From NCBI RefSeq assembly GCF_002804205.1, contig NZ_CP024962.1, positions 248,001-312,000 of the forward strand: 64,000 nucleotides of DNA, written 5' to 3'. The DNA comes from Entomoplasma freundtii. GTDB lineage: Bacteria > Bacillota_I > Bacilli_A > Mycoplasmatales > Mycoplasmataceae. The notes beneath the pieces are model-generated. The model was given only the letters and a program-made list of their open reading frames with translations, ran no database searches and was not told the DNA's origin. Below are positions 23,145 to 59,283 of this stretch, one piece after another (the stretch's first letter is position 1; every line of letters starts with the position of its first letter). Position numbers and translations under genes: made by a program.

Positions 23145-24830
23145 TTATTTCAAAGTTTTCTTTTTTTCCAAATTATTATTTTTTTCAATTAATAATTTTT
23201 GGTTTCATTCTAATTTTGTAAACTTTTTGAGTTCTTCAATATCTTCACCAAAGTCTTCTAATAAAATATTTCGTGATCTATTTCAAAAGTATTTGGTTTT
23301 ACCTAAGATAAAAGTAGTTGAGAAGGCGACAGATATAGATAATAGTATTGATAGTGTTCCTCATAGGTAACCACCCCCAATTCAAGTAATAACGCCTGTT
23401 TTGAGTGGGGCTATATGTTGAAACATTAAAATACCGAAAATAGATGAGGCCCCTTGCAAAGCAAAAGTATTTGAAGCTACAAATAAAAGTGACCCAGAAA
23501 AGACGCCTATCGAACAACCAATTAAAGGAAATAGGTGTTTTAAATTGACGGTATATAATGAGGGCTCGGTAATTCCTCCAATAATGGCAGAAATGCCGTT
23601 TGATACTCCAACATTTTTCAAATTACGAATACGACGATGAACGCAAACAAAGGCAATTGTTGAAACACCTTGTGTAATATTGGAAATTGTAATGAGTCCT
23701 TGCAAATTAGTGCCGCCGTAAGCAGCTTGCCCTTGCAAAATGATTGGTGTCAATGAGTGGTGTAAACCAGTAATTACTAAAGGACCATATAAAGCGCCCA
23801 CTATAGGCATGGCAATATATTTGGCTACGTAGTGTGTTGATAATCAATTAATTCCAATTGATAAATAATTGGTGAAGAGCATACCAATTGGTGCCATAAT
23901 GAAAAGTCCGAATAGATAACCACCGCCAATAATTACTATAGGAGAAATAATCATTTTGGCAGTTGAATTCTTGATACGATCGCAAGATCGCTCAATTAAA
24001 ACACCAACACTTAGGACGATGATAATAGGAATTATTAAGCCATTATAATTAATTTTAAATGGATAGGTAATTCCCTTTCCAAACAATGTCCAACCAGGGT
24101 AAACGCTTATAATAGATTCACCATCAGGAACCTTGACATCACCCATATTTATGAGACCTGGTGCGGTTAAAACTATGGCAATTATTAAGCCATAAATCAC
24201 GTTGCCACCCATAGCTTTAAAGACTGTATAGCCCAAAACGATTGTGATAAATAATGTAAAGCTACCAGTTAAAATTCCTAATATCTCCGCGAATTCACCA
24301 AAAAAATGAGAAGTTGCCGCTAAACTTGTTTTGGGACCATTTCAGTCAACCGTTAATAATGACCAAATAGTTAGGAGCAGTCCATAACCAATCATAGGGA
24401 TAACTATTGGTGAAAAAACCTTGCCAATAAAGGAAAGAAAGGCTGTAAGGTGATGGCCACCTTTGCGATGTGCTTTTTTCATTGCGGCGATTTCGCTACT
24501 TTGTTTGACAAGAAAATCGGTTTGTTTAGCATTAAGGTGACTGCGATTTTTACCATCCTCTTCGAAACCGTTTATTTTGCAAAAATCTTTATAGAAAGAT
24601 TGAACATCTGTACCAATAATTACTTGGAACTCACCAGTAGCGATTGATTTACTAACGCCCATAAGTTGGTTATCTTTTTTAATTTTTTCTTCATTTATAA
24701 TTGTTCAATCTTTTAAATGAAAACGCATTCGAGTCATGCAATGAGTGAAATACTCAATGTTGTTATATCCTCCAAGAGATTCAAAAAGTTCTTTAACCGA
24801 TTCCTTATATTTACTAGTGGGTGTTTTCAT
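23145..24830 (-). CDS. PTS beta-glucoside-type EIIBC permease
   Basis: 561 residues with many TGA-Trp codons (for example near 24711, 24342, 23844, 23382). It imports and phosphorylates a beta-glucoside. The EIIB domain carries the phosphorylated Cys31 in FTHCMTRMRFHL; the EIIC domain follows with about ten membrane spans and ITEPSLYTVNLK, the usual substrate-site region. There is no EIIA domain, so a separate EIIA-Glc (crr) must donate phosphate. Its ATG overlaps the end of the glucosidase gene by 17 nt. The shared operon and neighbouring RpiR gene support a substrate such as cellobiose, arbutin or salicin. Confidence 0.9.
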
Positions 24831-26196
24831 CGTGAACCTCTTTGTTTTTAATTAGTTCTTGATACCAAAAAGCTGATTTTTTAAATCGTCGACTCATATC
24901 AGTCAAATCGACCTCAATAAAACCGTAACGATTTTTAAAAGCATTACGAAAACTCCAACAATCTAAGGCGGCTCACATATGATATCCAAAACAATTCGAG
25001 CCTTGATTCATTACTTCTTTAATAATTTGTAAATGATTAGTTAAAAATTTGATTCGATAATCATCTTGAATTAAACCTGATTGATCTCGATAACTTTCTT
25101 CATTTTCTACCCCAATCCCGTTTTCCGCAATGTATCATGGAATATTGTGAAACTCATTTTTGATAGTCATTCCAATATCATAAAGAGCTTCAGGATAGAT
25201 TTCTCAACCTCGAAAAGGATTCACGTTAGCTGTCTTAGGGATTTCTGCTACCACTTCTTCCAACCCCCACCTTGCCGACTTTATGTTATCTACTTGGCGC
25301 ACACGAGTCGGAAAGTAATAATTTATTCCAAGAAAATCTATTTTAGTATCCTTGATAATTGCAATTTCTTCGGTGCTATATGGTGGTAATAAGTTGTATT
25401 CTTTTAAAGATTCAATTAGAAGACTGCTAATTTTGCCATTAAACATGATATCTAAGGGTCCTCGGTTCACATATGCATCATGGAGTTGAGCGGCTTTTAA
25501 ATCTTGCGGTTTATTTGACAATGGATATGTATAATTTCAGTTATAAACAACCCCAATTGGTTTTTTTAATTTCAGTTTACGATACAATTTAATGACTTTT
25601 GAATGAGCTAAAAAAATACCATAAGCCTGTTTGATAGCTTCTTGCGGATTTCAAATTCCAGGATAATGACGTTTTCCTAAGTAGCCTTCAAATACCGGAA
25701 CGAGAGGCTCATTGAAGGTGACAAAACAATCCACTTCATCATGGAATTCTTTGAAGACAAATTCTGCATATTTAACAAACTTGTTAATTACTTTTCTTGA
25801 GGATCAACCGCCTTCTTGATAGGCTCAAAGCGGCATATCAAAATGAAATAATGTCATATAGAGTTTGATATGATTTTTTTTATATTCACGAATATAATCG
25901 TGGTAAAAAATAACTGCTTCTTCATTGAGTGTTTCTCCATCGGGAAACAATCTAGCTCAAGCAAAACCTGTTCGTAATGAATCAAAACCGATGGTTTTAA
26001 ACATCGCTATATCTTCTTTATAATATGTTGTTATATCACAAGTTAATTGAGGACCAACTTGATTAAAAAATAACTCTGGACTTTTATCAAAAAAGGCATC
26101 AAAAGTATTTAGACCAGTTTTGGTACAGCCGTGCCCTTCGGTTTGTAAAGCGCTAATTGAAGCTCCAAATTCAAAATTTTTCGGAAATTTAAGCAT
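24814..26196 (-). CDS. 6-phospho-beta-glucosidase (GH1)
   Basis: 460 residues with TGA-Trp near 25957, 25825, 25803, 25531 and 25204. Splits the phosphorylated disaccharide delivered by the partner PTS into glucose-6-phosphate and an aglycone or glucose. Glycoside hydrolase family 1 markers are FEFGASISALQTEG at the start, acid/base Glu163 in CFVTFNEPL, and nucleophile Glu358 in WYIAENGIG. Near the end AFKNRYGFIEVD is the usual 6-phospho-sugar region. GGAGGT precedes the ATG. The end overlaps the PTS start by 17 nt, so the pair is translationally coupled. Confidence 0.93.
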
Positions 26197-50390: not shown

Positions 50391-51038
50391 CTACAGTCTT
50401 GCGTCTTTTGGGTTTGCTTTGACCGCCTCGCGCATAAACTCAAGTAGTTCACGTTTGGTTAAGTCAGCGAGAATTACTTCTTCAAGTTCTGGACGTCCAT
50501 GAAAAAATAAATCGCGAGTTTCGTTAGCATGTTTAATTAAGTCGCTGCGGGCTTCCTTAATTTCTAACGAACCATCGACATTTGCTCTCTCTGGCATTTC
50601 TAATTCCACAAAAGTGACTGACATGATTTCTTTAGGAACTTGTTTTGAAAGTTGATGAGCATATTTCTTTGTCATACGGTTCACATAGGAAAGGGCTTTT
50701 TTATGTTTCTTTGAAACTTTTGTTTCGACCTTTGACCAATTGTTTGGATCGATGGCATCTTTTAAGGTTTTTGAAGCTATAAACTTTGGTTTTGTTCGTG
50801 CAGAAATAATAATTTTTTCACCAGTTGCTGGATTAACCCCGACGCGTTTTTTTACATGTTCGGTTTTGAATTTACCAAAACCATGAATTTCCACTACATG
50901 TTTTTCGATTAAATCATTAGCGATTGAATCGAAAATGATATCAACAATTTCTTTAGCATCTTTTGCGGTCAAAAAATCTTTTTCCATCATCAGATCTTCC
51001 GCAAGCGTTTTTTTAGTTGATAGCGTGTCTCACTTCAT
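50391..51038 (-). CDS. HU/IHF-family DNA-binding protein with a long C-terminal module
   Basis: 215 residues from the ATG at 51038 (GGAAGG ribosome site), TGA-Trp at codon 3. Residues 1-100 are the HU fold: LTAKDAKEIVDIIFDSIAND, VEIHGFGKFKTEHVKKRVG, then the DNA-contact arm GVNPATGEKIIISARTKPKF and KTLKDAID. Ordinary HU ends near residue 92. About 110 more residues follow. Their last 90 (from MTKKYAHQL onwards) resemble the extra tail of ribosomal protein L20 encoded at 56.7-57.5 kb, including ER..VDGS and LTKRELLEFMRE. Whether this is the main nucleoid protein cannot be told. Confidence 0.88.
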
Positions 51039-55515: not shown

Positions 55516-55650
55516 ACCAAATCTCACCTCCTTTCAGAAGGATAAAAAGAAATCCTAATTTATGGTTAGGGTTTATTTTAAGACTGGTAGTTAGGAAAAG
55601 TAATTTCTTTTTTTCATAAAATTATCCATTTTATTTATTAAGCAAATTGC

Positions 55651-55678
55651 TTGATTTCTCGATTAATTCAGATAAAAT
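55651..55678 (+). promoter_or_regulatory. Promoter of the infC-rpmI-rplT operon
   Basis: TTGATT at 55651-55656 and TAAAAT at 55673-55678 with a 16-nt spacer. The predicted transcript begins near 55685, about 210 nt before infC. Confidence 0.6.
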
Positions 55679-55684
55679 AATAAA

Positions 55685-55897
55685 GTTAAAAAAAGAAGCA
55701 CAAGCTCACCGTCCGAATCATTTGACTTCATCTGACTTCAAAGCGGTCACTAAACCAATTTATTTATTTAGAATTTAATGAATAGACTAAAGGTGTGCTT
55801 TCTTTTGTTTGACGGCACACTTTTTATTTTGTTTTCTAAAAATTCTCAAGGATAATAAAAAACAAAATAATTTCAAAAACAAGGAGAAGGTTTATAG
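55685..55897 (+). promoter_or_regulatory. L20-type leader with attenuator upstream of infC
   Basis: The leader holds a terminator GTGTGC (55793-55798) / GCACAC (55815-55820) followed by TTTTTA. An upstream segment AAGCACA (55696-55702) is complementary to TGTGCTT (55794-55800), so it can form an antiterminator that breaks the terminator. In Firmicutes this operon is controlled by L20 through transcription attenuation of this kind. The sequence shows the two exclusive hairpins; control by L20 here is inferred from the family. Confidence 0.72.
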
Positions 55898-56455
55898 ATG
55901 GATCAAAACAACCAATCAAGAAATCAACGCTTTGCCCGAAATCATCATCAAGATCCGATTAATGGGTATATTCGCGCTCGTCAAATCTTGGTAATCGACC
56001 AATTTGGAAACAAACGTGGCGTTTTATCTAAGGGTGAAGCGATTGGTTTGGCTGAACGAGCTGGCTTAGATTTAATGCAGGTCGGAACGCAACCTGATGG
56101 TACTGCAATTGCAAAAATTGTAGATTATGGAAAGTATAAATACGAGCAACAAAAGAAACAAAAAGAAGCTAAGAAAAACCAAGTCAAAACTGAAAATAAA
56201 GAAATTCGTTTAACAGTTAACATTGGTGAACATGACTTAGATACCAAAGCTCGTAAAGCACGAGAATTCTTAGAAGAAGGTAATCGTGTCAAGATTTCTT
56301 TAAAATTCCGTGGTCGTGAAATTACCTACCTTGATTTAGGGAAAGCGACTTTGGAACGTTTCTATAAGAAAATTGAGGATATTGCCAAAATTGAAAAAGA
56401 AGCGAAACTAAACACACGTTTTCTAGACATGTATGTCGTGCCTAAGAAAAACTAA
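55898..56455 (+). CDS. infC: Translation initiation factor IF-3
   Basis: 185 residues. Keeps ribosomal subunits apart and checks the initiator tRNA. The N-terminal domain includes INGYIRARQILVIDQFGNK, LSKGEAIGLAERAGLDLMQV; the linker is Lys/Gln-rich (YEQQKKQKEAKKNQV); the C-terminal domain has EIRLTVNIGEHDLDTKARKA and VKISLKFRGREITYLDLG. About 20 extra polar residues at the N-terminus. AAGGAGAAGG precedes an ATG, not the rare AUU used in enteric bacteria. First gene of the operon. Confidence 0.96.
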   Translation: MDQNNQSRNQRFARNHHQDPINGYIRARQILVIDQFGNKRGVLSKGEAIGLAERAGLDLMQVGTQPDGTAIAKIVDYGKYKYEQQKKQKEAKKNQVKTENKEIRLTVNIGEHDLDTKARKAREFLEEGNRVKISLKFRGREITYLDLGKATLERFYKKIEDIAKIEKEAKLNTRFLDMYVVPKKN

Positions 56456-56716: not shown

Positions 56717-57550
56717 ATGGCAAGAGTAAAATTTGGAAAAGTAACGCGTTCACGTCGTAAACGTTGAATTAAACGTGCAAAAGGATATTATGGTTTAAAA
56801 AAATCATCATATAAAAAGGCGCATGAACAAGTAGTTCGCTCAATGGCCTATGCCTTTGTCGGACGTAAAGAGAAAAAACGTGATTTCCGTAAACTATGAA
56901 TCGCACGTATCAACGCCGCAGTTCGCCCTTATGGACTATCATATTCACGTTTCATGCACGGTTTAAAAGTCGCTAACGTTGACGTCAACCGTAAAATGCT
57001 ATCAGAATTAGCAATTAACAACCCACAAGACTTTGAAAAAATGGTTAATTTAGTGCAAACTACTTTAAACCAACCAGTAACCCACCCGGACTTAATGCCA
57101 ATTAAAGTCCCAACAGCAAAAGTAACTACTAATACTAAAGTAGTGACTAGTGAAGTAGCGGTTGAACCAACTAAAGTAATCGAAACAGTTAAAGCAGTTG
57201 AAATGGTTGAAGTGACTGAAGTAGTGGACAACGAAAACCAAGAAGATTACTTGGCAACAATCGAAACTAAATATGCGCAAGAACTAAAACCAAAACGTAC
57301 TAAAAAAACTACTGATGAAGCCGAAGCACCAAAAGTTGCTAAAGCAGACTTAAGTTTGGAAGAACGTTCAACTTTAGATGGATCAGACAAAATTAGTGAA
57401 AGTCGTGATGAATTAGAAAAACACGCCATGACCTTAAAAGCTAAATTACCAACTACTGAAAAAGCTTTATTAAAAGCGGATGTAAAAACAATGACCAAAA
57501 AAGAGATCATTAAATACATGCGTAAAGTTTCAAATAAATTAGCAAAATAA
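56717..57550 (+). CDS. rplT: 50S ribosomal protein L20 with a long C-terminal extension
   Basis: 277 residues, against 115-120 for ordinary L20. TGA-Trp at 56765 and 56897. Residues 1-120 are normal L20: [60 protein letters not shown]. Then come a Pro/Val/Thr/Glu-rich linker (about 121-190) and a module of about 85 residues ([12 protein letters not shown] to KLAK). The module resembles the tail of the HU-like protein at 50.4 kb. L20 normally represses this operon; the extension leaves that core intact. A decayed copy of the module's DNA lies at 59.16-59.28 kb. Confidence 0.93.
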
Positions 57551-58786: not shown

Positions 58787-58939
58787 CTTTTTCACCTCCT
58801 TTCCAAATTATGAGAATAACAATCAAATTTCCTTCTCATAGTTGATTATAAGATTCAAAGTCTAAAATTATGTTTTTAATTTACCTAAAATTTTACTTTT
58901 TAAACATTCTGTTTTATTGAAATGGCATAGGAAAATAAA

Positions 58940-59138
58940 TTAAAAAAGAAGTGTAATTTCACTTACCGTATGAATTAATTACCATTATATAACTGTCAAT
59001 GTAGTCACTAAAAAAATTTATTTATTTAGGATTTAATGAAATAGACGAAAGATATGCTAATTTATTTTAAAACCAATTTTTTATATTGTTTTAGAAATTA
59101 GCAAGATTAACAAAGCAAACTAATTTCAAAATTAAGAA
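58940..59138 (+). pseudogene. Fossil of the infC leader
   Basis: Matches the intact leader at 55685-55885 block by block: an A-rich GAAG start, TAGTCACTA versus GGTCACTA, the shared TTTATTTATTTA, ATTTAATGAA, and AACTAATTTCAAAA versus AAATAATTTCAAAA. The terminator arms GTGTGC/GCACAC have been lost, and the downstream gene is absent. Confidence 0.78.
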
Positions 59139-59158
59139 GTGTTTTTTTAATTCATCAC

Positions 59159-59283
59159 GGCTTTAAAAGCAAAATCACTAACTATTGAAAAAGGTCTTAT
59201 TAAAATCAGGCGTACAAACGACAGCCAAAAAAAGAAATCATTAAATACATTTGTAAAGTTTCAAGCAAATTTGCAGAATACTA
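59159..59283 (+). pseudogene. Fossil of the rplT 3' end
   Basis: Nearly collinear with 57430-57550, the end of the L20 tail. Shared runs include CTTTAAAAGC versus CCTTAAAAGC, ATCATTAAATACAT and GTAAAGTTTCAA. Several frame-breaking changes mean it cannot encode the tail. No start codon or ribosome site. Confidence 0.82.

Follow-up and report, generated by a model that had tools for sequence, protein, structure and literature searches.

Leader and operon

Does the RNA leader in front of infC-rpmI-rplT in Entomoplasma freundtii switch transcription on and off, and would ribosomal protein L20, a product of the same operon, be the regulator? The locus was studied in a window of 64,000 nucleotides, the whole stretch of DNA analysed, taken from a genome of 838,114 bases on one contig that reads TGA as tryptophan. 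Inspection of the letters without database searches (the sequence-only reading) had proposed an attenuator under the control of L20. On the evidence presented below, positions 55685-55825 very probably constitute a transcription attenuator that responds to L20 and belongs to the L20_leader kind known from Firmicutes. For this reading the elements, their mutual exclusion, conservation and covariation, and the homology with Rfam-positive leaders were computed. The operon is preceded, in this order, by a weak promoter match, the leader and a hairpin terminator with its T-run (55789-55825; Table 1), and the leader occupies the position of the Rfam family, the 5' leader of infC-rpmI-rplT. The ribosomal part of the L20 protein comprises about the first 120 residues and the remainder forms a tail.

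Table 1. Features of the infC leader, its operon and related sites. Positions are those of the window, unless a contig is given.
Feature	Position	Strand	Basis or remark
Promoter-like site: TTGATT (55651-55656), 16-nt spacer, TAAAAT (55673-55678)	55651-55678	+	Transcript start expected near 55685
Antiterminator, 5' strand, includes AAGCACA; begins at the expected transcript start	55685-55702	+	Pairs with 55794-55813
Helix H1: AGC (55697-55699)-ACAA-GCT (55704-55706)	55697-55706	+	Fold; rivals the antiterminator for AGC
Core GCTCACC (55704-55710) and helix H2, ACCGT (55708-55712)/GCGGT (55743-55747)	55704-55747	+	Motif, invariant columns, covariation, fold
Helix H3, AU-rich hairpin	55759-55786	+	Fold
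Intrinsic terminator: arms 55789-55799 and 55814-55824, T-run 55821-55825	55789-55825	+	Fold, -15.7 kcal/mol
infC, translation initiation factor IF3, 185 aa	55898-56455	+	Pfam IF3_N and IF3_C
rpmI, ribosomal protein L35, 64 aa	56495-56689	+	ORF; name from sequence and operon position
rplT, ribosomal protein L20, 277 aa (TGA=Trp), presumed effector	56717-57550	+	Pfam Ribosomal_L20, residues 3-108
Relic: duplicated leader (58934-59139) joined to broken rplT 3' end (59163-59280)	58934-59280	+	Sequence comparison, folding
Tail module, end of rplT	57341-57547		
Tail module, HU-like protein	50391-51038	-	
Tail module, elsewhere in the genome	C1:751462-751671	-	

Scanning 55540-55910 for promoters, three sites were found, compared to 1.8 in shuffled sequence, each with 9 of 12 consensus matches: the site upstream of the leader, one on the opposite strand and one at 55843-55871. 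Since the upstream site is weak when taken alone, the promoter assignment rests on the relatives. In the family, 58 of 60 leaders, that of the window included, had a -10 hexamer 27-35 nt 5' of the GCTC core, and 48 of the 60 had an exact TATAAT; the scan picked the best hexamer within a fixed range, and these counts are therefore biased towards a match.

Two mutually exclusive structures

The complementarity put forward in the sequence-only reading was found in place. AAGCACA (55696-55702) and TGTGCTT (55794-55800) are fully complementary, and the terminator letters were located at 55793-55798 (GTGTGC), 55815-55820 (GCACAC) and 55821-55825 (five T). Because TGTGCTT overlaps the GTGTGC arm at these positions, the two pairings exclude each other, as had been stated. 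The 7-bp core of the antiterminator stood, and the pairing turned out to be much longer than described: 55685-55702 and 55794-55813 form 18 pairs with two single-base bulges (-17.2 kcal/mol), and through the pairs outside the core the bases presumed to be transcribed first are tied to the loop of the terminator. The 3' strand of the antiterminator is made up of the 5' arm and the loop of the terminator hairpin. Compared to 200 single-base shuffles of this strand, the type of shuffle used for all energy z tests, the duplex reached a z of -5.2. The AGC of the leader has two possible partners, the GCU of the core (H1, together with the terminator) or the GCU in the terminator arm (antiterminator), which makes H1 a second, small competitor.

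A consensus scanner restricted to loops of 3-8 nt reported no terminator in 55540-55910; it misses the hairpin due to this loop limit, as the inner stem is interrupted. When growing transcripts were folded, the antiterminator was part of the minimum free energy structure at 3' ends 55805 (in part), 55813, 55818 and 55822, and the terminator at 55826 and 55832, with -31.1 kcal/mol compared to -28.9 kcal/mol when the antiterminator was forced. The antiterminator is therefore complete shortly before the T-run is finished, and the terminator is favoured by about 2 kcal/mol once the T-run has been made, all energies being model values for 37 C and for one strand alone. According to this folding model the two states would lie near balance, as is needed for a switch operated by a protein. 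By analogy with B. subtilis, the core and H2 likely represent the L20-binding H1-H2 junction. The Bacillus counterpart of H3 is described in an excerpt of PMC6097659 as dispensable for regulation.

Conservation and covariation in the family

Sixty genomes of the family, from 12 genera, were compared, all of which contain IF3 and rplT. The motif GCTC[AG]CC before infC, an AGC or AGT arm (H1) 5' of this core and an arm with T-run were each found in 60 of 60. The bare GCTCACC is uninformative, with 2 occurrences in the window versus 2.0 expected. In the 60-row alignment the core adjoining H1 provided 6 of the 15 invariant columns, and GGT, its partner in H2, 3 more.

The antiterminator strands fit each other better within than between genera. 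Cognate strands reached -15.4 kcal/mol, compared to -12.0 kcal/mol for non-cognate ones (12 genera; 0 of 20,000 permutations), and the double-centred difference between cognate and genus-swapped strands was -3.2. For the loop extension alone, analysed with genus g8 and the core 5-mer removed, -6.6 versus -4.5 kcal/mol was obtained (11 genera; 0 of 20,000 permutations). Both permutation tests take genera as independent. Compared to shuffled strands, 44 rows including the window showed z values of -2.9 or lower; the test was weak for the 14 rows of g8 (z -1.4 to -2.2), L032 (-1.8) and L055 (-1.7).

Paired changes were counted in alignment A3, which holds 32 of the 60 rows and leaves out the window, the 14 g8 rows, L058 and 12 rows close to others. 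Here both partners had changed in two pairs of H2 and in 2 of the 6 core pairs of the terminator. H1 was intact and invariant in all of its 3 pairs, and as it never varies in A3, covariation is silent about it. No double change was found at the six antiterminator core pairs among these 32 relatives. The clearest core covariation was seen in g8 itself, most rows of which carry AAAGTAGC/GCTACTTT instead of AAGCACA/TGTGCTT, so that covariation of the core rests on this genus. RNAalifold on the full 60-row alignment yielded seven pairs, all within or beside H2; by eye, MAFFT misplaces the g8 arms in this alignment. Conservation of the pairings in relatives, proposed earlier as a check, was thus borne out for the elements (60 of 60) and for the better fit of cognate strands, and for double changes in the core in g8 only.

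The Rfam model and a lineage model

A comparison with the Rfam L20_leader model, likewise proposed as a check, gave a divided answer: the alignment was full-length, and the score of 25.4 bits fell below the curated cut-off of 58.7 for RF00558. In a permissive scan all 127 positions of the model aligned to 55687-55832 (E = 0.012), with H1, H2 and terminator in order; in H1, 3 of the model's 6 pairs were nonstandard there, as were several in H2. Under stricter filters the genome had no RF00558 match at E <= 0.01. Among 20 of the 60 family loci that were scanned, 4 matched at E <= 0.5, with 27.4-32.8 bits (E 0.015-0.35), none reaching the cut-off. Of 296 genomes sampled from the class, 215 contained RF00558 at E <= 0.01 and 62 had it above the cut-off. 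Two genomes of the family are among the matches listed; at least 20 others of the family, the present one included, were without match, and there are 61 unmatched genomes beyond those listed.

A covariance model (R1) was built from the 32 relatives, window excluded. It detected the window leader with 76.9 bits (E = 2.5e-11) as the sole match in this genome at E <= 0.01. Searching 198 genomes of the order, 45 matched, all in the family of the window; 31 of these are training genomes that match by construction, and 14 others include the present genome. R1 missed the 12 g8 genomes listed, despite the presence of the motif there. Ten Rfam-positive leaders of the class, presumably from Bacilli, served as controls. 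R1 recovered 8 of them in the right place (24.9-37.4 bits, E 0.00012-0.031) and missed L069 and L075. TCTCACC...AGGT stands at the same place in all ten (by eye). In seven, the duplex of 5' arm and terminator region reached -16.4 to -23.0 kcal/mol (z -1.7 to -4.1); this count leaves out L071 and L072, for which a wrong piece had been cut, and L073, where the T-run was included (-19.1 kcal/mol, z -2.6). A weak R1 match in the window at 24704-24854 (-) with 25.7 bits (E 0.02) probably reflects chance, and scores near 25 bits are consequently unsafe by themselves. Taken together, cross-detection by R1, the common core and the complementarity between 5' arm and terminator region make the leader homologous to the Rfam family despite its failing score. 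It is a known kind of switch, a divergent and unannotated member in a lineage missed by the public model.

Proposed mechanism and alternative explanations

With operon, H1/H2 core, antiterminator and terminator matching those of B. subtilis, and with the elements in 60 of 60 genomes, L20-mediated attenuation as suggested by the sequence-only reading is the best reading. The choice of L20 as ligand, and of the direction in which it would act, follows the B. subtilis precedent. RNA polymerase would start at about 55685. As long as ribosome assembly takes up the L20, the 18 nt at the 5' end would pair with the 5' arm and the loop of the terminator, allowing read-through into infC-rpmI-rplT. Surplus L20 would bind the H1-H2 junction (AGC-ACAA-GCUCACC...GGU) and keep AGC in H1; the antiterminator would then be blocked, the terminator would form and transcription would stop near 55821-55826. 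We infer from the Bacillus precedent that L20 keeps H1 closed and thereby frees the terminator arm. By such feedback L20 in surplus would probably stop the transcription of its own operon. The 23S rRNA of this genome contains AACAGCTCACTAGTC, of which, in a comparison of sequence, AGCTCAC alone is common to the leader; the common motif may hint at an imitation of the rRNA site. A more far-reaching proposal is doubtful, namely that the leaders of the Williamsoniiplasma/Mesoplasma/Spiroplasma family form a structurally distinct class of L20 attenuators, with H1 cut to 3 bp, a full-strand-swap antiterminator running from +1 and including the terminator loop, and a switch that depends on strand displacement no less than on the affinity of L20.

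Among the alternatives, the same two-state terminator might be sensed by IF3, L35, polymerase speed or temperature, L20 having been lost as ligand in this lineage. We regard this as improbable. The H1 of only 3 bp compared to 6 bp in the Rfam consensus would agree with it, as would the distance of about 2 kcal/mol between the states, which speed or temperature could shift. However, the invariant core beside H1, the invariant GGT and the motif TCTCACC...AGGT, found by eye at the equivalent position of all ten Rfam-positive leaders, are what is expected for a protein site.

Clearly less probable still is a constitutive terminator combined with a separate infC promoter in 55833-55897, the complementarity being incidental. 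The distance from the T-run to infC is 72 nt in the window compared to 9-28 nt (median 19) in 59 relatives, and the gap contains the promoter-like TTCTCA-17-AATAAT (55843-55871), which equals the site upstream of the leader by number of consensus matches. Yet the gap of the relatives is too short to fit a promoter, a -10 hexamer is located upstream of the leader in almost all of them, and the antiterminator strands co-vary between genera. Least probable of all, the leader could be a nonworking relic in this genome, in line with an H2 loop of 30 nt versus 11-19 nt in relatives (some g8 values being ambiguous), the overlong gap and a decayed copy nearby, but the antiterminator and terminator energies lie inside the family ranges (-8.0 to -21.8 and -7.0 to -16.9 kcal/mol, respectively) and the core is kept, all of which the true relic has lost.

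The decayed copy and the L20 tail

The sequence-only reading had also seen added interest in a second leader without terminator and in the long tail of L20. The duplicate 58934-59280 is a decayed relic of a duplicated operon end, with 71.5% identity in the leader part and 80.5% in the rplT 3' end, and with a 26-nt piece (59139-59164) inverted. The loss of its terminator was confirmed (-1.8 kcal/mol), but the antiterminator (-4.0 versus -16.9 kcal/mol) and the core (2 of 7 bases lost) have decayed as well, so that the copy adds no interest and was rejected as a working leader lacking only the terminator. An AU-rich stretch of H3 remained identical at 28 of 29 positions while the functional elements decayed.

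The tail of about 157 residues is real, the protein having 277 aa compared to 116-121 in tail-less relatives. It was found in 7 of 60 genomes (g1 4 of 4, g3 1 of 1, g11 1 of 2, g12 1 of 4). As the leader is present in 60 of 60, leader and tail are unrelated, and a bearing of the tail on the leader was rejected.

The tail ends in a module of about 65 residues (ERAKLDGSxxIxExRSELQKHANKxR...NLRDMTKKELIxYMRxV) common to L20, an HU-like protein and a PTS EIIBC protein. Pfam gave no family above cut-off on the module in these three proteins. Matches were obtained in 18 of 60 family genomes, with up to 7 per genome; those of G027 were weak and short. Besides L20, the module is carried by different ribosomal proteins depending on the genus, by Pfam S6 (L085), S16 (L093) and S5 (L100). 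It precedes a C-terminal HU domain in L104, L105 and L107 and occurs on membrane-like proteins with hydrophobic N-termini, as judged by eye (L097, L101, L103). From these sequence contexts the module might possibly be a docking unit that ties ribosome, nucleoid and membrane together. A literature search on the module turned up one paper, which by title and abstract looked unrelated. The tail module may merit more attention than the leader.

Comparison with known systems

The findings indicate that a family with small genomes, in which Rfam-based annotation fails, has retained L20 feedback by attenuation. As R1 matched 45 genomes of the family, a lineage model could be used to annotate the leader. 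Being near-minimal, these cells also lend themselves to tests of ribosomal feedback. In the open literature no recognised description of an L20 leader in Mollicutes was found, an earlier mention in Deiorio-Haggar 2013 or Choonee 2007 being possible. The excerpt of PMC3766115 describes the L20 motif as apparently restricted to Firmicutes and found in Thermotogales too; the words Mollicutes, Tenericutes and Mycoplasma are absent from this excerpt.

E. coli L20 represses its own rpmI-rplT via an mRNA site resembling its 23S rRNA site, according to an excerpt of PMC10931766. This control resembles the one presumed here in that L20 acts on its own genes. It differs, by the same excerpt, in being translational, in using a pseudoknot plus an irregular hairpin, and in leaving infC outside L20 control. 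A deltaproteobacterial L20 leader candidate was proposed to imitate two conserved portions of the L20 site in 23S rRNA, in contrast to the present case on another scaffold and in another lineage (PMC7247131, excerpt).

The closest system is the infC-rpmI-rplT attenuator of B. subtilis (Choonee et al. 2007, as cited in PMC6097659 and PMC10931766) and Rfam RF00558. The B. subtilis leader can adopt two alternative structures, of which bL20 binding favours the one with the terminator (PMC10931766, excerpt), and the L20 site is the H1/H2 junction, where mutations relieve repression (PMC6097659, excerpt). As far as these partial sources go, the window leader agrees with this system in the operon, in the order H1-H2-(H3)-terminator, in CUCACC...GGU at the H1-H2 junction and in a 5' arm that pairs with the terminator region. 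It differs in its H1 of 3 bp (AGC/GCU), compared to the 6 bp (AGAAGC/GCUUCU) of the Rfam consensus, in a score far under the Rfam cut-off, and in an antiterminator that begins at the presumed +1 and includes the loop of the terminator.
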